A stretch of DNA of 64,000 nt from Lepisosteus oculatus. Its lineage: Eukaryota; Chordata; Actinopteri; Semionotiformes; Lepisosteidae. Location of the stretch: the NCBI RefSeq assembly GCF_040954835.1, contig NC_090706.1, positions 29,459,148-29,523,147 on the forward strand, read 5' to 3'. The translations under genes were made by a program, and so were the position numbers. The first letter of the stretch is position 1, and the number at the start of each line of letters is the position of its first letter. Below, piece after piece: positions 6,681 to 57,900 of the stretch. The notes beneath the pieces are model-generated. The model was given only the letters and a program-made list of their open reading frames with translations. It ran no database searches and had not been told where the DNA came from.

Positions 6681-9600
6681 CTAGTTCTCCTCGATGAGCG
6701 TCAAGTCCAGCTCTGTGCAGTCTCTCTCAAACACCCCCTGCTGTTCCTCGCTGTCACTCTTCGAGTCGTCGTCATCCTCCTCCTCCTCCTCCTCGCTCTC
6801 ACTCAGGGGCCCGATGCTGACTCCAAGCCCTTCAGGAGGGCTGTGTGACCCCAAGAGACACCCCAGACCAGGCTCCTGGCCCAAACACATACCCCCTCCT
6901 CTGCAGGCTCCTGAGCCCCAGTCACCACAGCATAGAGGGTCACTGCTGCGCGTCTGAGGAGAGAGGAAGGGCAGGGTCAGTTCACACACGCTGACTTACT
7001 GACCGCCTGTACCCTCACACTGCACTGAGACACTGATCCTGACCGCCTGTACACTCACACCGCACCGAGACACCGATCCTGACCGCCTGTACACTCACAC
7101 CGCACCGAGACACCGATCCTGACCGCCTGTACACTCACACCGCACCGAGACACCGATCCTGACCGCCTGTACACTCACACCGGACCGAGACACCGATCCT
7201 GACCGCCTGTACCCTCACACCGCACCGAGACACCGATCCTGACCGCCTGTACACTCACATAGTTGCTAATCCTCATTTTCCTAAATCACTTTTCTTTCAA
7301 ATAAACAAAACAAAATGGGAAAACCTGGACTGGAAGTCAGATTGACAGCACTGTAAAGCCTGGAGTGGATCAGACTGCTGTGCACTGGGAGTGTGACTGA
7401 AAGCACTGTAAAGCCTGGAGTGGATCAGACTGCTGTGCACTGGGAGTGTGACTGACAGCACTGTAAAGCCTGGAGTGGATCAGACTGCTGTGCGCTGGGC
7501 CCGATTGGCTGAATCAGTACTGTTTCATGGGATCTGCGTGAAGGACTACGGGGGTTGGCTTGTCTTACTCAGCTGCTAGCTCCGAACAGTCCCCATGTGC
7601 GTGAAGACATCAATGCGAGCAACGGACCACAGGAAGAAGATCCTTCCCTCTTCTCCGTCCCCAAAAAACCGGCCCCTCCCCGCAGCCGGTGACTAAGGCC
7701 ACCGTCGATCTCGCTGCCGGGCCGAACAAAAGCAGCTTTCAGCACGAGGTTCCAGAGCAGAAACCCCACACGCGGGCAGGCAGGAAGACGGCCTGGGGCC
7801 GGGAGTCTGGCAGAGGGGGCTCTGGGCAGGCAGCTGTATGCAAAGCGTATGCAAATAGGCACCGTGCCTTCTCCCGGAGCCGGGTCTGCAGCCAGGACTC
7901 CGAGGGGGTGGAGGAGTGTGTGGGGGCCTTCACCTCTCCGGGCAGCCCCCTGCCAGAACGCTCTGGAGCCTCCTCACAGGCAGATCGCTGCGGCGGCTGT
8001 TGGGTTTCGTTTGATTTTTAAGAATAAGAAGCCGATACAAATATTTACCCTCTATGAGCAAACTGCATCAACTCTTCTGCCAAGGCCCCGCTTATCCCAA
8101 GAGCATGCACGCACGCGCACGCACACCCACCCCCGCACACGCGCGCCCACGTGCGTCAGTGCAGAAAGGATGGCGCGCCTTGGCCACTAACAGAGTTACT
8201 GCAGGGCACCCAGCACTTGCCCAGACTTCCCTGCAAGAGGAATGTCAGTCCTCCCTGGGAGCATCTGCGTCAGGCCCTGCCCCCGTCGGCGCTGGGCTCC
8301 TGGCAGGGCGGTGCGCCGTGGGCGAACGCCAAACAGCGATTTACACTTCAATCCGGCAGGCTGGCTGCCTCTGCGCTGTGAAAGGCCGCCTGACGTGACA
8401 GCACGGCGGGAGGTGGGGAGGGTTGTGTCAGTCATTTTCCACAGGGCTGGGAAGGCCAAGACCTTTACACAGCGTCAACCCCCACCCCCCAAACCCAGCC
8501 TCGGGGTCTCGTGTGTGGACGATAACACTAGCGTCCGCTGAAGCAACTAGCCATACAGCAGAGAAACCTGAGCCAGAGGACACCACTGGGAGTGAGACTG
8601 ACAGCACTGTAAAGCCTGGAGTGGATCAGACTGCTGTGCACTGGGAGTGTGACTGACAGCACTGTAAAGCCTGGAGTGGATCAGACTGCTGTGCACTGGG
8701 AGTGTGACTGACAGCACTGTAAAGCCTGGAGTGGATCAGACTGCTGTGCACTGGGAGTCAGACTGACAGCACTATAAAGCCTGGAGTGGATCAGACTGCT
8801 GTGCACTGGGAGTGCGACTGACAGCACTGTAAAGCCTGGAGTGGATCAGACTGCTGTGCACTGGGAGTCAGACTGACAGCACTGTAAAGCCTGGAGTGGA
8901 TCAGACTGCTGTGCACTGGGAGTGTGACTGACAGCACTGTAAAGCCTGGAGTGGATCAGACTGCTGTGCACTGGGAGTCAGAGTGACAGCACTGTAAAGT
9001 CCGGAGTCCAGGGTAGTGCTGGTCTGTACTGTAGATACTGTCCAGGGGTCAGAGGCCTTGGTCAATTGGAAAATGGAGAATAGAGCTACTGTTAGCAACA
9101 CAGACAACTGATTTTCTGTTTACCAGATTTCTGAGCGAGATGCTTCAATCCAGCTAAATGCAGCGCAATGTACTGTCGCCCCCAACACCACTAAAGCGCC
9201 GAGCGGCTGGGTGTGCAAACACTGCGCAACAGGAAAACATCCACTGCAGCCGAAGAGGCAGCCGAGAGGGAGGGCGGAGAAGGGTTAAGGAAACGAGAGC
9301 CAGGCTCAGTCTGGAAAGGGAAAGCGCGTTAGTCCTTGTGGACCAGGCTCATCCGTCCCCAGAGCCGACAAGACGGAGGAGGACAGCGCAGGGGTCTTGG
9401 CAGGGGGGGGGGTCACACAACTGAAAGAGGCCAGCAGCCGGGTTCAGGATCCAGCAGGAGCTGCTGGAGGACGATCACGCAGCGGGGGAGCTGCCCTGCG
9501 GGAGGAGGAGGAGGAGGAGGGAGCTGCTAGCTGTGTACCACAGGGAGGACCAGGAGGGCGGACTTCACAACGCAGGGAGCAACACGAGGACTGACAAGCT

Positions 9601-20564: not shown

Positions 20565-20960
20565 TGCACAGCCGTTTGATCCACTACAGTGCGACTCCCA
20601 GTGCACAGCAGTCTGGTCCACTCCTGGCTTTACAGTGCTGTCAGTCACACTCCCAGTGCACAGCAGTGTGGTCCACTCCAGGCTTTACAGTGCTGTCAGT
20701 CACACTCCCAGTGCACAGCAGTCTGGTCCACTCCAGGCTTTACAGTGCTGTCAGTCACACTCCCAGTGCACAGCAGTCTGGTCCACTCCTGGCTTTACAG
20801 TGCTGTCAGTCACACTCCCAGTGCACAGCGGCCTGATCCACTCCAGGCTTTACAGTGCTGTCAGTCACAGTCCCAGTGCACAGCAGTCTGATCCACTCCA
20901 GGCTTTACAGTGCTGTCAGTCCACTCCCAGTGCACAGCAATCTGATCCACTCCAGGCTTT
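20565..20960 (-). repeat. 55-bp family, locus 3 (about 7 copies, inverted)
   Basis: Reverse complement of the unit at 7.3 and 8.6 kb: ATCCACTCCAGGCTTTACAG core at 55-bp spacing with minor variants. Confidence 0.9.
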
Positions 20961-23900
20961 ATCAGCTACACAGTTCTGGTACAGAAGCAACACCAGCTGC
21001 TGGAGATATCAAGCTCTGAAACTTCTGTAACTCCATCATTGATATTCACAGAAGTCCTGCAGCTGCTGAAACTGGAGTGGATCAGGCTGCTGTACACCGG
21101 GGGCCTAATCACTTTCTTCATAACTAAAAACAAGCCCCAGCAGCCTCCTCCCACCTCTCTCATTGCCCCTCCCTTCCTGCTTCTAAGATATTTCAGGTTA
21201 TTTCCCCGCGATTAAAATAGAACACAGAATAAGTCTTATTTCTCAATTCAACCACCACATTACGCCTCTTATCCAACCACACATAATTCAGAAAATGACT
21301 TCACGGGCCTGCGCCGCACGTTCCTTCAGAAACACTGGTCCTCTGCTTTCACCCCTCCCCCCTCCTCTCTCCTCTCGTCCTCCTCTCTCCTCTCTTCTCC
21401 TCCGTTTCCTCTCACCCCTCTCTCCTCCTTGAGCCCAGGAGTGGAAGTGTGCCGATTATTCACTTCCCTCCCCCTTCCTTCCCCACACTCCCTCCCTCCC
21501 TCTCCCTCGATCCCCGATCCCCGCTCCCAGCCCGCGGTCCGTGTTGAAGAGAGAGCCGTGTGAAACCCCCCCGGCCGCGAGACACCGCGGGAACCAAACG
21601 CAGCTCCGCTGGGGACTTCAGCGCGGGGAAACGCAGACGGAAAACCTAGGCGATCCCTAGGAATCGGCCATCCCTGGACAAGCCCAGACATCCTGGCAGC
21701 TGACTTCACCACATCCCAGAGGGAGAGAGAGAGGAGCTTCCTGCCCTGTCTAGTCAACCCACTGATCGGAATCTTAACGAGTTCGCGGGGGGCAGGGAAA
21801 TCGCCAGCCTCGCGCACGAACTCAGGAGCATCTGCCCTCTGCCATCAACTCACCCTGCCCCGGAAGCAGAAGGCCAAATTAAATCAGCCGAGCCACACTT
21901 GGCGTCTCTGTCCATCTCCCGCGTCCACAGAGGGGGACGGCGGCCCCTGCCCAGGCTCCCTAGCCAGGCTGACGGATGAGAGAGGGACTGGACTCGGACC
22001 CCCCCGGCGTGAACATGGTATCGGCCTGCGGCCATGCCAGCGGATACTCTGGCAACAGCAGCCAAAACAGGGCAAGAGAGATGACAGAGGGAGGCCTGGT
22101 GCTCCCCAGTGCTCCAGCAGCACCAGTGTGGTCCTGTAGAGAGGCTCCACAGAGGCAGGTCTGGGGGTCCGCAGCCACCCCTTGTCACACACCCGCGTAG
22201 CTCCAGAACCACAAACCCCCCTCGTCAGGCACCAGCACAGCCATGGAGGACGACCCTCCTACAATAGAGCTAGCCCCTTCCTCTGTCCCAGTGCGGGTTC
22301 GCTGCAGGCACAGCAGAACAAAGCATGAACTTGGCAATGAGCGCCTATAAACCTGCTCACCGACAGCATATCACCTGCATCTGACCCTTCAAAACCAGAC
22401 CATATTCAAAAAATCAAAAAAATCAAAACATCTGTGGTCACATGAAATGTTCATCAGTCTCATTCCCAGTGCACAGCAGTCTGATCCACTCCAGGCTTTA
22501 CAGTGCTGTCAGTCACACTCCCAGTGCACAGCAGTCCCATCCCCTCCAGGCTTTAGCAGTTGTATATACTTTGTTGCAGTTTAATTTCGGATCAGAATTT
22601 TCTGATCTAATCAGCTAAAAACCAGCTTGGCTCTTCCAAGTCAATGGTGACATGCTTCTGCACACATGGAATCACAATGTAATACAGGACCCTTGGATAA
22701 AGCCCACGTTGGGCGCTGGACAAGATAAAAAGAAGTGAACACAGAGCTGTCCCGGAAGAGCCCGAGTTTCCAGAGGACTTGATTTATGACACTTATGTAA
22801 ATCTTCACATGGCCGGTTTGGCATCTTGGGGGATTAAAAGAAAAGCAGCAGCAGGGACAGAAATCCAACTATCTGGCAACTTTGGCGGCTCGCTATTATT
22901 TTTCGGCTCGGTTTCACAGAGTCCACAGATGAGATCGGGGGGGGAACCACGCGTGTCAAGAGCTGACCACTCGGGCTCTGGGGGGGGGGTCATTTTAACT
23001 CAGGAGAAGAGTGGAGCCGCCACGCCAGGCACACACACAGACACGCACCCGAGTGGGGACCGCCCGGCAGAAACGGCTCCGGCCCGTTGCCTTAGTAACG
23101 AGCCAGGGAGCGGAGGACCGGGGTGAGCCAGCCCGCCCGCACACAGAGCTGGCGACGAGTCCGTTTGTGCCTTAATGTCATTAAACGTCATGACCCATCC
23201 GCTCGACCAGCCCCACGCGAATAAACACGCGACAGACACGCACGGCAAAACCTCCCCGGCAGCCACCACGACAAGAGACAAATCGCTACAGCGGCTGATC
23301 AATAACTTACTATTTATAGGCGAGCGCCGTCTCCTGCTTGTTTTCCATTTTTACTCCTACGGTGTTAGAAACCAGTGATGTGGCTGGCGAACACACAGAG
23401 GAGGGAAAGAGCCTTCGCTCGCTATAGGTGGGTCAATTTAAATACAACATTTTAAAAAAACAAACTGCGATAACGTGCCTGACTCGTACAGAAACGGCAA
23501 TCATCACGCCTCCATACTGCGCGATAAAACGAGAAGTAACGTGAAACGCCTATCCCCATTTTTTTTAGAAAAAACACCCCTGGAATGAAAAACAGGATTT
23601 ATGATGCATCTGTAATTGATCTCCAGCAACTCTACCAGGTACGCGTGCCGAAGGGAAACACACACATCGGGAATTGAGAAACGAGCAATATTATTCAGCG
23701 TTTTCAGGAACGGGTTTTCGTCACGACCCGTGGTATCTATCGCAGAGAAACCCCCTCAGCCTGTGGCAGCCCATCGCGACTGAGCGCTCGCCGGAGATAA
23801 TGTCCGCATTACCTGCCCGAAGGATCTCCTTAGCAACCGAGAGCAGCACGGAGCAACCAGAGGCCTCGCGCTGGGAATAAATACCGCGGGAGGTACCACC

Positions 23901-25762: not shown

Positions 25763-25763
<1 letters not shown>

Positions 25764-25817
<54 letters not shown>

Positions 25818-25818: not shown

Positions 25819-28800
25819 GCGGCGGCGGCTGGCAGCGCTCCGTCTCCATGAGCCAGTGCAGCCAGTCCAGCAGCTCGTGGTCGGCGGACAGCGGGGCGCA
25901 GGGGGGGCCGCCCGGGCCGGGCTCCAGGACCTGGGGACAGGGGCACGCCTCAGGAGGGGGCCGCGGGCAGGAGGGGGGGCGGCCGGGGGCGGGGGGCGGG
26001 GGGCGGGCGTACCTGAGGAGACCAGCTGTGGCAAGCGGGCAGGGGGGGCGGCGGCGGCCCCCCGGAGTCTCCCCTGGGCGGCGGCCCCGGCCATCCCGGT
26101 CTGGAACGCAGAGCCCAGTCAGCACAGCCAGCCCGGACTCGAACCTGCAGGACACGGGCCCCTCCCAGGGATCTCGGGGTGCGCTGCGTACCCCACACAC
26201 TCCCAGGGACAGGTGGACAGCAGTGATTCCTGTGTGTCTCACCCCTTCCCCTCCCTCAGGGCGTCCCCCCCCATCTCTCTCTGTCCCTCCAGTGCTCACT
26301 GCAGATCCTCGGGGTCCCCCTCCCTGTCCCCCAGTGCTCACGGCTCATCCTTGGGGTCCCCCCTCCCTGTCCCCCAGTGCTCATGGCTCATCCTTGGGGT
26401 CCCCCTCCCTGTCCCTCACTCCTCACTGCAGATCCTCGGGGTCCCCCTCCCTGTCCCCCAGTGCTCACGGCTCTTCCTTGGGGTCCCCCCTCCCTGTCCC
26501 CCCAGTGCTCACGGCTCATCCTCGGGGTCCCCCTCCCTGTCCCCCAGTGCTCACTGCTGATCCTTGGGGTCCCCCTCCCTGTCCCCCAGTGCTCACGGCT
26601 CATCCTTGGGGTCCCCCCTCCCTGTCCCCCCAGTGCTCACGGCTCATCCTCGGGGTCCCCCTCCCTGTCCCCCAGTGCTCATGGCTCATCCTCGGGGTCC
26701 CCCTCCCTGTCCCCCAGTGCTCACTGCAGATCCTCGGGGTCCCCCTCCCTGTCCCTCAGTCTTCACTGCAGATCCTTGGGGTCCCCCTCCCTGTCCCCAA
26801 GTGCTCACGGCTCATCCTTGGGGTCCCCCCTCCCTGTCCCCCCAGTACTCATGGCTCATCCTTGGGGTCCCCCTCCCTGTCCCCCAGTGCTCACGGCTCA
26901 TCCTCGGGGTCCCCCTCCCTGTCCCTAAGTCCTCACTGCAGATCCTCGGGGTCCCCCTCCCTGTCCCTAAGTCCTCACTGCAGATCCTCGGGGTCCCCCT
27001 CCCTGTCCCCCAGTCCTCACTGCTGATCCTCGGGGTCCCCCTCCCTGCCCCCCAGTACTCACGGCTCATCCTCGGGGTCCCCCTCTCGCTCCTGGGGCTC
27101 CGGGGTGTCTGCAGGGGGGTCCCAGGCGTGCAGCGCTCGCCTCCACAGCCTCACCTGCATGTCCCAGGAGCGCCGGCTGTACTTCCTGAACTTGTTGGGG
27201 GTACGGGGGTGCAGCCCCGGGATCCGCTGCCTCCTGGGAGAGTACAGGGAGGCTCGCTGCTGTCGGGGTACTGAGGTGTGGGGGTGGCAGGAGGAATGGT
27301 GCAGAGGGGTTTCGGGGCACTCTTACTTGGGCACCTCCCGCAGGTAGTTCTGGGTGTGGGGGTGTCAGGGTGTGGGGGTGCTCTTACTTGGAGCAGGTAG
27401 TTCTGGGTGTGGGGGTGTCAGGGTGTGGGGGTGCTCTTACTTGGAGCGGGTAGTTCTGGGTGTGGGGGTGTCAGGGTGTGGGGGTGCTCTTACTTGGAGC
27501 AGGTAGTTCTGGGTGTGGGGGTGCTCTTACTTGGAGCAGGTAGTTCTGGGTGTGGGGGTGTCAGGGTGTGGGGGTGCTCTTACTTGGAGCAGGTAGTTCT
27601 GGGTGTGGGGGTGTCAGGGTGTGGGGGTGCTCTTACTTGGAGCGGGTAGTTCTGGGTGTGGGGGTGTCAGGGTGTGGGGGTGCTCTTACTTGGAGCAGGT
27701 AGTTCTGGGTGTGGGGGTGCTCTTACTTGGAGCGGGTAGTTCTGGGTGTGGGGGTGTCAGGGTGTGGGGGTGCTCTTACTTGGAGCGGGTAGTTCTGGGT
27801 GTGGGGGTGTCAGGGTGTGGGGGTGCTCTTACTTGGAGCAGGTAGTTCTGGGTGTGGGGGTGCTCTTACTTGGAGCAGGTAGTTCTGGGTGTCAGGGTGC
27901 TCTTACTTGGAGCAGGTAGTTCTGGGTGTGGGGGTGTCAGGGTGTGGGGGTGCTCTTACTTGGAGCAGGTAGTTCTGGGTGTGGGGGTGTCAGGGTGTGG
28001 GGGTGCTCTTACTTGGAGCAGGTAGTTCTGGGTGTGGGGGTGCTCTTACTTGGAGCGGGTAGTTCTGGGTGTGGGGGTGTCGGGGTGTGGGGGTGCTCTT
28101 ACTTGGGGACCTCCTGCAGGTAGTTCTGGGTGTGGGGGTGTCTGGATGTGGGGGTGCTCTTACTTGGAGCAGGTAGTTCTGGGTGTGGGGGTGTCTGGAT
28201 GTGGGGGTGCTCTTACTTGGAGCAGGTAGTTCTGGGTGTGGGGGTGTCAGGGTGTGGGGGTGCTCTTACTTGGAGCGGGTAGTTCTGGGTGTGGGGGTGT
28301 CAGGGTGTGGGGGCGCTCTTACTTGGAGCAGGTAGTTCTGGGTGTGGGGGTGTCAGGGTGTGGGGGCGCTCTTACTTGGAGCAGGTAGTTCTGGGTGTGG
28401 GGGTGTCAGGGTGTGGGGGTGCTCTTACTTGGAGCGGGTAGTTCTGGGTGGGGGGGTGTCAGGGTGTGGGGGTGCTCTTACTTGGAGCGGGTAGTTCTGG
28501 GTGTGGGGGTGTCGGGGTGTGGGGGTGCTCTTACTTGGAGCGGGTAGTTCTGGGTGTGGGGGTGTCGGGGTGTGGGGGTGCTCTTACTTGGAGCGGGTAG
28601 TTCTGGGTGTGGGGGTGTCAGGGTGTGGGGGCGCTCTTACTTGGAGCAGGTAGTTCTGGGTGTGGGGGTGTCAGGGTGTGGGGGTGCTCTTACTTGGAGC
28701 AGGTAGTTCTGGGTGTGGGGGTGCTCTTACTTGGAGCAGGTAGTCCTGGGTGTGGGGGTGTCGGGGTGTGGGGGTGCTCTTACTTGGAGCGGGTAGTTCT

Positions 28801-29753
28801 GGGTGTGGGGGTGTCGGGGTGTGGGGGTGCTCTTACTTGGAGCGGGTAGTTCTGGGTGTGGGGGTGTCAGGGTGTGGGGGCGCTCTTACTTGGAGCAGGT
28901 AGTTCTGGGTGTGGGGGTGCTCTTACTTGGAGCAGGTAGTTCTGGGTGTGGGGGTGTCAGGGTGTGGGGGTGCTCTTACTTGGAGCAGGTAGTTCTGGGT
29001 GTGGGGGTGTCAGGGTGTGGGGGTGCTCTTACTTGGAGCAGGTAGTTCTGGGTGTGGGGGTGTCAGGGTGTGGGGGTGCTCTTACTTGGAGCAGGTAGTT
29101 CTGGGTGTGGGGGTGTCAGGGTGTGGGGGTGCTCTTACTTGGAGCAGGTAGTTCTGGGTGTGGGGGTGCTCTTACTTGGAGCAGGTAGTCCTGGGTGTGG
29201 GGGTGTCAGGGTGTGGGGGTGCTCTTACTTGGAGCGGGTAGTTCTGGGTGTGGGGGTGTCGGGGTGTGGGGGTGCTCTTACTTGGAGCAGGTAGTCCTGG
29301 GTGTGGGGGTGTCGGGGTGTGGGGGTGCTCTTACTTGGGGACCTCCCGCAGGTAGTTCTGGTAGCCGCTGGTGTTCTTGCCGTACTGGATCTGCTTCTGC
29401 CGGCGCTTCAGAACCGCCTCGTTGGTCTCACAGCGGGACGGGTCCAGGGCCCGGGAGCAGGGGGCGCCGTCGGGCTGGGGGCTGCGGAGAGGACGGGGAG
29501 GCCGAGGGGGGGGGCCCCCGCACGGTGTCAGGGCAGACGAGAGGGGAGCAGGAGAGCCAGCTGGACGTGCAGAGCGGACCCCTCCTCCTCCTCACCTCCC
29601 AGCCCGGTCCAGGTCCTCAGTCCCCACGGCGACGCTGGCAGTGGACAGCCTCAGGATACAGCGCTCCAGAATGGACGCTCTGCGGGGACGGAGACAGCAG
29701 GTTGTGACCCGGGCGGGACATCCCGCTGGGGGGCTCTGCTCAGCTCCTGGCCT

Positions 29754-45445: not shown

Positions 45446-45960
45446 AGTTCCATGCAAAAGTTTTGGTTACCCCTGGTCAAATTACATGTTCACACGTTAA
45501 ATGGGGGGGAAAAAGTTAATTTCTGCAATGTACAAATTTAAACATGACATTTTAATGCACAATTACTATTTATTTGCTAAATTTAACAGATTGAAAAAAA
45601 ATTCAAAGTGAATGTGTCATGTGCAAATGTTTGGCTGTGATACTTCGTAACACCACCTTTGGCCAAAATCACAGCTACCAAATGTTTCTTGTAGTCAGCG
45701 AAGAGTCTTTCTATTCTTGTTTCAGGAATTGTTTCCCACTCTCCCTTGCCGAACTCTTGTAGCTCAGAAATATTCTTAGGTCGTCTTCCAAGCACTGCGT
45801 GTTTAAGATCTACCCGCAGACTGTCAAAAATCTTCAAGTCTGGGGACTGTGAGGGCCGTTCCAAAACCATCTTTCATTCATGCAAGTGTTTCATGTTTGA
45901 TTTTGAGGTAGGTTTTGGATCGTTGTCTTGCTGAAATATCCAACCTCTTTGCAGAGACTA
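45446..45960 (-). pseudogene. Tc1/mariner-like transposase fragment
   Basis: A minus-strand frame at 45870-45583 encodes the C-terminal part of a Tc1-type transposase: VLERPSQSPDLKIFDSLRVD, then a KNISELQEFGKGEW stretch and ADYKKHLVAVILAKGG. These match the DDE-domain end of the family as I know it. The flank at 45446-45480 (CATGCAAAAGTTTTGGTTAC) resembles the transposon end. The N-terminal DNA-binding half is absent, so the copy is truncated and inactive. The 57-bp array at 46000 begins beside it. Confidence 0.75.
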
Positions 45961-50509: not shown

Positions 50510-53500
50510 GATGGTGTTACTCCTGATACTGTCTCCTTACTCTTACTACTGCTGTCACTGTTACTCCTGATACTCTCTTTACTCTTCCTGCTGCTGTCAC
50601 TGTTACTCCTGATACTGTCTCCTTACTCTTACTACTGCTGTCACTGTTACTCCTGATACTCTCTTTACTCTTCCTGCTGCTGTTACTGTTACTCCTGATA
50701 CTGTCTCCTTACTCTTACTACTGCTGTCACTGTTACTCCTGATACTCTCTTTGCTCTTACTGCTGCTGTTACTGTTACTCCTGATACTGTCCCCTTACTC
50801 TTACTGCTGCTGTTACTGTTACTACTGATACTGTCTCCTTACTTTTACTACTGCTGTCACTGTTACTCCTGATACTCTCTTTACTCTTCCTGCTGCTGTT
50901 ACTGTTACTCCTGATACTGTCTCCTTACTCTTACTACTGCTGTCACTGTTACTCCTGATACTCTCTTTGCTCTTACTGCTGCTGTTACTGTTACTCCTGA
51001 TACTGTCCCCTTACTCTTACTGCTGCTGTTACTGTTACTCCTGATACTGTCTCCTTACTCTTACTACTGCTGTCACTGTTACTCCTGATACTCTCTTTAC
51101 TCTTCCTGCTGCTGTTACTGTTACTCCTGATACTGTCTCCTTACTCTTACTACTGCTGTCACTGTTACTCCTGATACTCTCTTTACTCTTACTGCTGCTG
51201 TCACTGTTACTCCTGATACCGTCTCCTTACTCTTATTGCTGCTGTCACTGTTACTCCTGATACCGTCTCTTTACTCTTACTGCTGCTGTTACTGTTACTC
51301 CTGATACTGTCTCCTTACTCTTACTGCTGCTGTTACTGTTACTACTGATACTGCCTCCTTACTCTTACTGCTGCTGTTACTGTTACTCCTGATACTGTCT
51401 CCTTACTCTTACTGCTGCTGTCACTGTTACTCCTGATACTCTCTTTACTCGTACTGCTGCTGTTACTGTTACTCCTGATACTGTCTCCTTACTCTTACTG
51501 CTGCTGTTACTGTTACTACTGATACTGTCTCCTTACTTTTACTGCTGCTGTCACTGTTACTCCTGATACTGTCTCCTTACTCTTACTGCTGCTGTCACTG
51601 TTACTACTGATACTGCCTCCTTACTCTTACTGCTGCTGTTACTGTTACTCCTGATACTGCCTCCTTACTCTTACTGCTGCTGTCACTGTTACTCCTGTTA
51701 CTGCCTCCTTACTCTTACTGCTGCTGTCACTGTTACTCCTGATACTGCCTCCTTAGTCTTACTGCTGTCACTGTTACTGTTACTCCTGATACTGCCTCCT
51801 TACTCTTATTGCTGCTGTCACTGTTACTCCTGATAATGCCTCCTTACTCTTACTGCTGCTGTCACTGTTACTCCTGATACTGTCTCCTTACTCTTACTGC
51901 TGCTGTCACTGTTACTCCTGATACTGTCTCCTTTTCTTATTGCTGCTGTCACTGTTACTCCTGATGCTGCCTCCTTACTCTTACTGCTGCTGTTATTGTT
52001 ACTCCTGATACTGTCTCCTTACTCTTACTGCTGCTGTTACTGTTACTCCTGATACCGTCTCCTTACTCTTACTGCTGCTGTTACTGTTACTCCTGATACT
52101 GCCTCCTTACTTTTATTGCTGCTGTCACTGTTACTTCTGATACTGTCCCCTTACTCTTACTGCTGCTGTCACTGTTACTCCTGATACTGCCTCCTTACTC
52201 TTACTGCTGCTGTTACTGTTACTCCTGATACTGTCCCCTTACTCTTACTGCTGCTGTCACTGTTACTCCTGATACTGCCTCCTTACTCTTACTGCTGCTG
52301 TCACTGTTACTCCTGTTACTGTCTCCTTACTCTTACTGCTGCTGTCACTGTTACTCCTGATACTCTCTTTACTCTTATTGCTGCTGTCACTGTTACTCCT
52401 GATACTGTCTCCTTACTCTTACTGCTGCTGTCACTGTTACTCCTGTTACTGCCTCCTTACTCTTACTGCTGCTGTCACTGTTACTCCTGATACTGCCTCC
52501 TTAGTCTTACTGCTGTCACTGTTACTGTTACTCCTGATACTGCCTCCTTACTCTTACTGCTGCTGTTACTGTTACTCCTGTTACTGCCTCCTTACTCTTA
52601 CTGTTACTCCTGATACGCTCTTTACTCTTACTGCTGCTGCTACTCCTGATACTGTCTCCTTACTCTTACTGCTGCTGTCACTGTTACTCCTGATACTGTC
52701 TCCTTACCCTTACTGCTGCTGTTACTGTTACTACTGATACCGTCTCCTTACTCTTACTGCTGCTGTCACTGTTACTACTGATACTGCCTCCTTACTCTTA
52801 CTGCTGCTGTCACTGTTACTCCTGATACTGCCTCCTTACTCTTACTGTTACTCCTGATACGCTCTTTACTCTTACTGCTGCTGCTACTCCTGATACCGTC
52901 TCCTTACTCGTACTGCTGCTGTCACTGTTACTCCTGATACCGTCTCCTTACTCGTACTGCTGCTGTCACTGTTACTCCTGATACTGCCTCCTTACTCTTA
53001 CTGTTACTCCTGATACGCTCTTTACTCTTACTGCTGCTGCTACTCCTGATACTGTCTCCTTACTCTTACTGCTGCTGTCACTGTTACTCCTGATACTGTC
53101 TCCTTACCCTTACTGCTGCTGTTACTGTTACTACTGATACTGCCTCCTTACTCTTATTGCTGCTGTCACTGTTACTCCTGATACTGCCTCCTTACTCTTA
53201 CTGTTACTGTTACTCCTGATACTGTCTCCTTACTCTTACTGCTGTCACTGTTACTCCTGATACTGTCTCCTTACCCTTACTGCTGCTGTTACTGTTACTA
53301 CTGATACTGCCTCCTTACTCTTACTGCTGCTGTTACTGTTACTCCTGATACTGTCTCCTTACTCTTACTGCTGCTGTCACTGTTACTCCTGATACTCTCT
53401 TTATTCGTACTGCTGCTGTTACTGTTACTCCTGATACTGTCTCCTTACTTTTACTGCTGCTGTCACTGTTACTCCTGATACTCTCTTTACTCGTACTGCT

Positions 53501-55013
53501 GCTGTTACTGTTACTCCTGATACTGTCTCCTTACTCTTATTGCTGCTGTCACTGTTACTCCTGATAATGCCTCCTTACTCTTACTGCTGCTGTCACTGTT
53601 ACTCCTGTTACTGCCTCCTTACTCTTACTGCTGCTGTCACTGTTACTCCTGATACTGCCTCCTTAGTCTTACTGCTGTCACTGTTACTGTTACTCCTGAT
53701 ACTGCCTCCTTACTCTTATTGCTGCTGTCACTGTTACTCCTGATAATGCCTCCTTACTCTTACTGCTGCTGTCACTGTTACTCCTGATACTGTCTCCTTT
53801 TCTTATTGCTGCTGTCACTGTTACTCCTGATACTGTCTCCTTACTCTTACTGCTGCTGTCACTGTTACTCCTGATGCTGCCTCCTTACTCTTACTGCTGC
53901 TGTTATTGTTACTCCTGATACTGTCTCCTTACTCTTACTGCTGCTGTTACTGTTACTCCTGATACCGTCTCCTTACTCTTACTGCTGCTGTTACTGTTAC
54001 TCCTGATACTGCCTCCTTACTTTTATTGCTGCTGTCACTGTTACTTCTGATACTGTCCCCTTACTCTTACTGCTGCTGTCACTGTTACTCCTGATACTGC
54101 CTCCTTACTCTTACTGCTGCTGTCACTGTTACTCCTGATACTGTCTCCTTACTCGTACTGCTGCTGTCACTGTTACTCCTGATACTGTCTCCTTACTCTT
54201 ACTGCTGCTGTCACTGTTACTCCTGATACTGCCTCCTTACTTTTATTGCTGCTGTCACTGTTACTTCTGATACTGTCCCCTTACTCTTACTGCTGCTGTC
54301 ACTGTTACTCCTGATACTGCCTCCTTACTCTTACTGCTGCTGTCACTGTTACTCCTGATACTGTCTCCTTACTCGTACTGCTGCTGTCACTGTTACTCCT
54401 GATACTGCCTCCTTACTCTTACTGCTGCTGTCACTGTTACTCCTGATACTGTCCCCTTACTCTTACTGCTGCTGTCACTGTTACTCCTGATACTGTCTCC
54501 TTACTCTTACTGCTGCTGTTACTGTTACTCCTGATACCGTCTCCTTACTCTTACTGCTGCTGTTACTGTTACTCCTGATACTGCCTCCTTACTTTTATTG
54601 CTGCTGTCACTGTTACTTCTGATACTGTCCCCTTACTCTTACTGCTGCTGTCACTGTTACTCCTGATACTGTCTCCTTACTCTTACTGCTGCTGTCACTG
54701 CTACTCCTGATACTCTCTTTACTCTTACTGCTGCTGTCACTGTTACTCCTGATACTGTCTCCTTACTCTTACTGCTGCTGTCACTGTTACTCCTGATACT
54801 GTCTCCTTACTCTTACTGCTGCTGTCACTGTTACTCCTGATACTGCCTCCTTACTCTTACTGCTGCTGTCACTGTTACTCCTGATACTGTCTCCTTACTC
54901 TTACTGCTGCTGTTACTGTTACTCCTGATACTGTCTCCTTACTCTTACTGCTGCTGTCACTGTTACTCCTGATACTGTCTCCTTACTCTTACTGCTGCTG
55001 TCACTGTTACTCC
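50510..55013. repeat. 44-bp minisatellite, about 100 copies
   Basis: The unit TACTGCTGCTGTTACTGTTA plus CTCCTGATACTGTCTCCTTACTCT repeats for about 4.5 kb. Variants (TCACTG/TTACTG, CTCTCTTTACTC, GCCTCC) are arranged in higher-order blocks: the stretch near 51.6-52.2 kb recurs near 53.6-54.1 kb. A seed-like sequence precedes it at 50440-50510. It ends abruptly at the CpG-rich block. Confidence 0.95.
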
Positions 55014-57900
55014 TCGCCGCTGCGGTGGCGGAAGTGCGCCGTGGTCGGCAGGGGTTTACGGTGCGGGCAGCGCCGCGCTCCGCAGTCCGCAGACACGAGC
55101 CGGAGCGAGTGCCCAGGTGAGGGCGCGTCATAATCGATCACGTGTTCAGAAAAGCTTCAGTGCCGAGCCGTCGGGCAAGAGTCTGAACGCGCACACTTGA
55201 ATCCGAACAGCTCGATGCGTCCTGCGGGGGATCGGGGGAAATTACTTAGTAGTTCATACTGAACCGCACTCTAAAAGCCGCGTGAGGACTGTGGCTCCCT
55301 GAGGTTCACTCTGCGAAAAGTACCTTGCAGGTGATCGCGGTAATGAGTCGGGAGCGCCGTGGTGTGGCGAATTTATTTGAGGTGGAGGGATCCGAGCTCG
55401 CTAAGCGGCGCGGTCTCCAGAAGTCTGCCGGCGGGCCCGGGAGATCCTGTTTAACCGTGACGGTGAAATAAGCCCTCCTCGGCGGTTCGGAGAGGCTGCT
55501 GTCCCCTCGCAGACCCCAGCCAGGGCGAGCAGCGACCGCGGCGCTCGCTTCCCGCGCCGTTTCGAACAAACCGTGATTAATTACAGTTTAATTACAGAGC
55601 GCGGGTTTGATTGTTTGGAGCAATATTCTGCGCCCGCCACCCTCCTCTTCCTCTCTCACCCGTCTGTCGCCTCTCCCCCCGTTTTCTGTAACTTTGAAGA
55701 TGTCGTGTATTCAGATGAAAACGGCGCCGCTTTGTGTGCTCTCTCTCCTGAGCCCGGCTGCTCATTCGCTGTTTTCGCGAATTGCCGTTTCGCCGGCGCG
55801 GTACATCTGTCACAGCTCAGCCCCCGAGTGTGCGCGTTATGATAAGACTTCATCCCAGAGACAGACTCGCACACGGCCAAAAATCAAAGGACCTTTCGCG
55901 CACACACACACACACCCCAGAGCGACACAGCGAAGGAGGGAGAGATTCTGCACAAAAATGAACAGGTCAACCCCCCCCACTCACAGACACGCAAATAAAA
56001 TAGCCTGTTCTCGAGGGAGCAGGAAGGAGGGTGACTGTCTCTCCCTTACCCTCAAAACACAACACACACAGAATACAACTCGCTCCTGAGCAGAATAAAC
56101 TCTTCTCTCGGGTGTCTTGGAGTATCCAGACAGTCGCTCTCCTCTCTCTCTCTCTCTCTCGCTCTCTCTCCGCCGGCCGGGCCAATCACGGCGAGCCACC
56201 GCGTGTCAAATGCGCGTGCACGGGCTCCTCGCGCAGCCAGTGCGCTCGGCAAGGCAGTGGCGGCGCGAGGCGCTCGGGCGACTCTGCAGGGCTACCGGGG
56301 CGAGATCACGAGCCCGCTGGGCGCGCACGGACTGTCCGCGAGCTGGAGAGCGACTGGGGGACCCGTGCCTTTCGGGACACACACGGTGTTTCCCTCTGTG
56401 TGTGTTTGTCACTGTGTGTGTTGATGAAGAGAGACTCCCGCAGTCTGGCTTTGCCCTGGAAAAGAGAAGTTGGACTTTGAAGTGATGATCCGCGTCTTGT
56501 GAGGATTCTCGGGCTTCGCGAGCCGCTCTGGCCGAGTGACCCCAGGAGGCTGCCACCCCGTCCCAGCGGCGCTCCCCGCAGCGCAGGGCTCCCCCCCGGA
56601 TCTTCCTGACGCCCCCCGGCTGCATGCGCTCGCGGGGGTGGGCGCGCGAGGGGAGCCGGAGAGCGGGTCCGCTCGCGCCGCTGGCCCGGCCCTCGCCCCC
56701 CCGGAAGATGCTGCTCCTGGGGGTCCTGGGGGCTCTCGTGAGCGTCTGCGTGCGCGGTAAGTGGCTGGGTGCCCCAGCGTCTCCGCCGGTACCTGCGCGC
56801 CGCCGGGGGACTCGTGTCTCCCGCTCGGGTTCAACAGACCCCCGTCCCGCCGCGAGTGGGCTCTCTGAGCCACGGGCACGGGTTCGTTTTCCCGTGTGGA
56901 TGTCGCGCTTCAGCCCGGGGGGGGAGAGACGCGTAATTTATCTCAGTCTCGTCCCCTGACCGTGTGGACCGACAGCCTCACACAGCTCGGACCCGGGTCC
57001 GAGGGCTCCCCGGGGGAACACAGGGGCTCTGCGGGAGAAGAGGGGCTGGGACGGAGCGGGGTCCTGGGGCTGCGAGTGTCCCCCAAATCGTCTGTTTCTA
57101 ACAGTTTCTAACGGGGGGGGGGCAGGGCAGGTGGGCAGGTGGGGAGCAGGGTGGGAGGGCAGGTGGGGAGCAGGGTGGGAGGGCAGGAGGGGAGCAGGGC
57201 AGGTGGGCTGCAGGGCAGGAAGGCAGGAGGGCAGGAGGGCAGGGTGTTCTGTCCGTGACCCTGCCCGGCCCTTCCGCCGCGCCTGTGCGACAGTGAAGGT
57301 TTTATGACACCCCGCGAGCTGAGCTCAGCGCGGGTCAGCAGCTCGAGCCAGCCTGCGACGGTGCGGTCCAAGTCCGCGCGTGACAGCCTGATATACGACC
57401 GTGCGCGAGGAGTGAGATGACGATGCCTGTCGATGACATCATCCCCAAGGTCTTCAAAACAATTATCTCCGTCCGCTCGAGAGAAGGGGGGGACGGGAGG
57501 ACAAAACTTTGGCTCATCGTGGGCTTTGCTCCAGTCTCTCGCACGCGCGCCTTTATCCGTTGTTCCCCCTTCCGAGCTGCAACTTCTTCAGGCAGGAAAT
57601 CGCACACTTCCCGGGAGTCAGTGGGAAAGTTTGGAAAAGAAGAGAAGCGGCTGCCGCCCGCGGGCTGTCACAGGGCAGTTGGGCTCTCGCGGGGCGACGT
57701 CTTTCACGCCGGGGGGCGGCTCTGGCGGTGCCGTCATCTAGCGGGCGCGCTGACGGCCGCTGATGTTTGTGTCGTCTTACCTCACCGCGCGGCGTTCCCG
57801 GCACCCCTGACGTCATTGTGTTCCGGGCGACCGACCCCCCCCCCCCGGTGAGAGGGCTCCGCTCCTCCCTGTTCCCGACACCCACCACTCTTGGCGAACA
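55014..57900 (+). promoter_or_regulatory. CpG-rich promoter block upstream of the putative gfra3 exon 1
   Basis: Strong CpG and GC enrichment starts directly at the array edge. An ETS-type GCGGAAGTGCG lies at 55027-55037, and a good donor (GCCCAG then GTGAGG) follows at about 55117, suggesting a possible untranslated exon. A CCAAT box lies at 56183-56187 upstream of the signal-peptide exon. A GGGCAGGTGGG-type G-rich array occupies 57110-57240. Confidence 0.5.
56708..56756 (+). CDS. gfra3: Signal-peptide first exon, candidate gfra3 exon 1
   Basis: ATG opens MLLLGVLGALVSVCVR, a short hydrophobic signal-sequence-like segment. It runs into a strong donor (GCGCG then GTAAGTGG) in phase 1. An in-frame ATG at 56624 would add a 28-residue basic, proline-rich extension. 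Human GFRA3, a GPI-anchored artemin co-receptor, lies next to CDC25C in the same orientation, and this exon has the right place and direction. The cysteine-rich GFRA exons were not found before the window ends, which would mean a first intron longer than 7 kb. The call rests on synteny and exon form, not on domain evidence. Confidence 0.4.

Follow-up and report, generated by a model that had tools for sequence, protein, structure and literature searches.

Within a 64,000-nucleotide window of the Lepisosteus oculatus genome (NC_090706.1, contig C11 of the 1.2-Gb genome searched; positions below are those of the window), an SLBP gene on the minus strand, read as slbp2-like, has an intron that consists almost entirely of tandem units, each with a copy of its own 5' splice site. 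The intron after exon 5 is 2101 bp long, and tandem units fill its first 2015 bp (29334-27320). At a probability of roughly 0.8, we consider this array to be a vertebrate counterpart of the amphioxus 'mirages', minisatellites that extend across exon-intron boundaries and, in the view of the authors who described them, leave splicing undisturbed (PMC3087553, PMC3902484). The exon-intron junction would have been duplicated in tandem, and the copies tolerated as the first donor stays in use. The numbering of exons and introns is adopted from the initial annotation of this DNA, and the exons traced here are exons 4-8 (Table 1).

Three properties of the array carry this reading. First, the repeat unit spans the exon-intron boundary, as the initial annotation had proposed: each of the 40 tandem units joins an exon 5 tail to the donor and to the first bases of the intron. 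The complete 27-nt tail is present in two units, each identical to the exon at 26/27 bases, and is 8 nt shorter in the other 38, precisely the division into two full copies and a shared 8-nt loss that had been described. Second, the array directly adjoins the authentic boundary, with the last exon base at 29335 and the first base of intron and array at 29334, so that the earlier placing of the real junction at the array edge is correct. Third, the splice signal is kept in 40/40 copies. In the region examined, the 9-mer CAAGTAAGA has 41 occurrences, of which one is at the exon junction and 40 are in the array, with the last GT at 27326, and at the level of sequence the spliceosome does face about 40 near-identical donors in addition to the real one. 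The 30 long (53-bp) units vary in 6/53 columns, none of which falls within the 12-base donor core. Selection on this core was considered and found unsupported, as a clean stretch of 12 columns is not significant with 6/53 variable columns (p 0.20); homogenisation is therefore enough to explain its invariance. Recurrence of the unit at unrelated loci was not seen in a genome search with the junction, in which 34/34 matches lay at 27306-29380 of the window, that is, in the array and its own junction. Since the search scored a single candidate stretch and passed over simple repeats and very common words, the rarity of the unit is supported rather than proven. The plus strand of the array holds 30 G-quadruplex motifs, whereas 20 base-shuffled versions average 7.15. 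G-quadruplex-linked instability is known for other minisatellites, and these motifs are a possible driver of instability here.

We infer the following order of events. A tandem duplication across the 3' end of exon 5 would have copied some 27 nt of the exon together with its donor and the intron start, after which one copy would have lost 8 nt of its exon tail. Slippage or unequal exchange would then have carried this shortened variant through the array, with full-length copies persisting at the far edge and at a single inner position; the copies downstream of the exon would be intronic and inert. Seeding of the array by duplication of the junction, already suggested in the initial annotation, is supported by the full tails at the far edge and inside the array, by its exact contact with the exon, and by the corresponding junction of slbp1, where an array is absent. 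A false expansion of one duplicated junction during assembly is highly improbable in view of the 13 distinct sequences among the 40 units, the three unit lengths, the diverged full-length copy inside the array, and the presence in the same assembly of other such arrays with sequences of their own.

The reading frame of the host gene is uninterrupted from exon 4 to the stop codon in exon 8, and the gene encodes the SLBP RNA-binding domain: the peptide of exons 5 and 6 aligns over 72/72 residues with chain C of PDB 4l8r, a histone RNA hairpin-binding protein (E 1.6e-32). A second SLBP locus is present on C1. Its two exons have 68 and 69% identity to the query, and as judged by eye it is closer to the PDB sequence than the window gene. 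The C1 locus is read as slbp1 and the window gene as slbp2-like, tentative names given by elimination. In slbp1 an intron of 181 bp occupies the matching position and codon phase (donor CCCAA/GTAAGT), and Tandem Repeats Finder detected no tandem repeat in it. Because slbp1 shares the intron position without the array, the intron is old and was lengthened in slbp2. A separate array of 7-bp units (minus-strand GCTGACC; 25763-25817) starts at the predicted slbp2 stop codon.

The initial annotation implied that the array is unique, which does not hold: a second array is present in the next intron, other genes show similar anatomy (see below), and the amphioxus mirages set a precedent. The units of the second array contain the tail of exon 6 and its donor GCC/GTGAGT, and ungapped comparison with the exon shows up to 27/30 bases in common. 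When the exon's own copy is counted, the GAGCC-type exon 6 end is retained in 11/19 units, and the GT is lost (CCATGAG) in 3/19. Zero G-quadruplex motifs were found in this array on either strand.

An important question is how a correct donor could be selected from such an intron. Donor strength cannot explain the choice, because all 41 donors are the same 9-mer; instead, the spliceosome would take the first donor as the one located on a proper exon (exon definition). Splicing from any of the 40 array donors leads to a stop at the identical codon, a TAA right after the last exon 5 codon AAG, and is expected to give nonsense transcripts. Because every later donor yields this in-frame TAA, the array is harmless only with the first donor in use. 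The slbp2 mRNA is predicted to be unchanged by the array. The copies could alternatively be regulatory decoys that bind U1 small nuclear ribonucleoprotein and thereby slow splicing or retain the intron, lowering slbp2 output, or that guard against premature polyadenylation. The presence in one 2.1-kb intron of 41 identical donors, each equal to the real donor in U1 match, and the stop that follows each downstream donor would fit such a role. We nevertheless consider it improbable: the invariant core is no evidence of selection (p 0.20, above), the array of the next intron has lost the GT in 3/19 units, and like arrays in unrelated genes suggest a by-product. The shortened units could also be viewed as optional micro-exons, in which a branch-point-like CTGAC, a C-rich tract and CAG would precede an exon of 15 nt, with GTAAGAG as its donor; each unit included would lengthen the RNA-binding domain by five residues (TTCSK or TTRSK) with the frame kept. 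In favour, 38/40 units yield a 15-nt frame-neutral cassette, the two full-length units yielding 23 nt with a shift of frame, and CTGAC plus a C-rich tract precedes the CAG in 22/40. Against this, an exon of 15 nt would be very short, and the C-rich tract is nearly devoid of T. Moreover, adjacent cassettes are about 38 nt apart, below normal vertebrate intron size, and chance alone could have spread the 8-nt loss. Micro-exons are, in our view, very unlikely, and it is likewise highly improbable that vertebrate mirages would form a large class in this genome with the slbp2 copies at the same time being 38 spliceable 15-nt cassettes. Were micro-exons real, the RNA-binding domain would be of variable length and encoded by a minisatellite.

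Similar arrays are present at predicted exon ends in other genes. These arrays were chosen by a donor-like motif and read by eye, and they show that the class exists, not its frequency. Exon calls were made by eye and not blind, from open frame, acceptor, donor and likely protein, and for arrays away from junctions a few hundred upstream bases were read. Three CAGGTRAG in a row gave 3444 matches, those listed representing 12 distinct places (C1 and the first part of C2), of which L013 was discarded as not being a tandem array. Among the 11 arrays left in these listed matches, five have a predicted exon donor at their start (L021, L037, L043, L046 and L049) and L047 is near one, while L014, L044, L045, L048 and L050 do not start at an exon donor. 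A search with CAGGTAAG gave 13 places among the matches listed, 11 of them new, with an exon-donor start in L082, L084, L085, L089 and L091 and a start elsewhere in L081, L083, L086, L087, L088 and L090. For both motif sets together, 10/22 donor-bearing arrays inspected start at a predicted exon end. The exons at these junctions match Pfam above the cut-off in L043, L046 and L084 and below it in L091 (E 8.3e-23), L082 and L089; Pfam gave no match for the exons of L021, L037 and L049, NCBIfam none for those of L037 and L085, and PDB none for that of L021. Presumably, the other array genes include letmd1, gba2, fam219 and tm7sf2. Copied exon tails measure 36 nt in L037 (35 identical), 37 nt in L085 (37 identical) and 17 nt in L084 (17 identical). 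The copied span of L021 (39 nt, 32 identical) exceeds its 37-38-bp unit and hence is partly due to chance. L021 combines donor-side and acceptor-side arrays in one gene, the latter (L021, 1-1060) being upstream of the exon and repeating CAG plus the exon start, with 21 copies of the tested 18-mer in the stretch examined.

With GAGGTRAC as a control motif, 11 arrays were found among the matches listed and nine were fetched. None of the nine inspected was seen to start at an exon donor, and one (L092) ends at an exon acceptor, with six acceptor-side copies. A weak DUF6825 Pfam match of L092, below the cut-off, was given no weight. For the acceptor-like array L097, no exon was seen in the next 850 bases. 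Comparing donors at 12 junctions, we found at least one downstream copy that equals the exon's own donor in U1 match in 11/12, a comparison that is biased upward because the arrays were chosen by donor motif. In L089, 12/21 downstream copies match U1 better than the exon donor; the second slbp2 array is the exception, with 0/15 downstream copies reaching the U1 match of the exon's own donor. The exon donor 9-mer is the commonest downstream copy in 10/12 junctions and is tied in L046.

Several observations weigh against a mirage origin, or against its generality. The second array lacks G-quadruplex motifs, which therefore are no general driver; that the first donor is used correctly is an assumption; and the array was read from one assembly of one individual of one species. 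Six of the ten junction arrays in other genes have a short copied tail, whose best well-matched stretch measures 2-11 nt, and those six may merely stop at an exon. Finally, the genome-wide motif test is mixed. CAGGTRAG triples number 3444 vs. 759 for the reversed pattern, whereas CAGGTAAG triples show no excess (56 vs. 71), and the control patterns scatter widely (300 for GAGGTRAC, 1162 for its reverse); overlapping triples were counted, so that a small number of long arrays has a large influence on these figures. A genome-wide rule of donor-specific seeding is thus unsupported as stated. A sample of kinase-exon loci (30 of the 143 matches listed) gives no useful base rate: 22/30 have no array with a unit of at least 10 bp, and 8/30 have at least one. 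In L078, the one locus read of these eight, the array is near the acceptor, with the acceptor outside the unit. Within the same sample, L063 has arrays inside an open frame. The kinase matches also include a tandem cluster of at least 10 similar exons at C4:33089541-33165782.

How does the slbp2 array relate to known systems? Amphioxus mirages occur in Adh3, the globins BflGb6 and BflGb9, troponin C and PGBD5 (PMC3087553, PMC3902484), and they resemble the arrays described here in keeping AG/GT signals in many copies, in copying either boundary, and in having cluster edges that escape homogenisation. They differ in copy number (6 and 3 units in BflGb6 haplotypes, vs. 40 here; PMC3087553), in unit size (10-72 bp in Adh3 and 150-160 bp in globins, vs. 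37-61 bp here; PMC3087553), and in their lancelet hosts, whereas here the host is a vertebrate, one donor 9-mer is common to all 40 copies, and one gene has two arrays. The Rogers model of intron gain by AG/GT tandem duplication (PMC3087553, PMC4974935) likewise involves a duplicated segment with splice signals inside a gene, but here an old intron, in a position common to slbp1, was lengthened and none gained. In humans, internal tandem repeats located at exon-intron boundaries (PMC2812944) share the theme that boundary repeats can alter exon-intron structure; those cases are recent segmental-duplication paralogues with altered exons or introns, in contrast to the unchanged mRNA predicted here. 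Another possible precedent is provided by growth hormone genes of fish, which have polymorphic minisatellites in introns 1 and 3; whether their units contain exon or donor sequence is not stated in the part of the report drawn on (PMC3045353). Among the papers listed in a literature search, no vertebrate report of boundary-copying arrays was seen. A vertebrate mirage is notable for its host and copy number; its kind is already known.

The intron provides a natural test of splice-site choice by the spliceosome: 41 donors share the same nine bases, and position or exon context must decide; accurate splicing would argue for exon definition. Such arrays, lying at predicted exon ends in multiple genes of a single vertebrate, would carry the mirage phenomenon beyond amphioxus, and they suggest a route by which introns could grow out of exon sequence.

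Table 1 Features of the slbp2-like gene and its arrays (positions in the window).
Feature	Position	Strand	Basis or detail
Exon 4	29596-29679	-	Open frame
slbp2-like exon 5, first half of RNA-binding domain	29335-29481	-	Acceptor CCGCAG, donor AA/GTAAGA; PDB alignment, frame
Authentic 5' splice site 9-mer CAAGTAAGA	29329-29337	-	Same 9 bases in 40/40 array units
Donor-bearing minisatellite, 40 units (exon tail, donor, intron start)	27320-29334	-	30 x 53, 8 x 37 and 2 x 61 bp
Inner 61-bp unit, full-length exon tail	28096-28156	-	Unit alignment
Far-edge 61-bp unit, full-length exon tail	27320-27380	-	Unit alignment
Remainder of intron, acceptor TACTCTCCCAG	27234-27319	-	Frame, splice signals
slbp2-like exon 6, second half of RNA-binding domain	27063-27233	-	Donor GCC/GTGAGT; PDB alignment, frame; phase as in slbp1
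Second boundary array, intron after exon 6	26277-27062	-	18 units of 42-44 bp beyond the exon's own copy (19 with it)
Predicted exon 7	26013-26100	-	Frame and splice signals only
Predicted last coding exon, through stop codon	25814-25930	-	Frame and splice signals only

Tandem repeats make up 30% of the window, the longest array being that at 50515-55014, with about 102 copies of a 44-bp unit. As judged by eye, one 55-bp minisatellite unit seems to recur at four sites (7329-7499, 8584-9007, 20594-20961 and 22454-22560). An open frame at 45589-45873 resembles what we take to be the end of a Tc1/mariner transposase.
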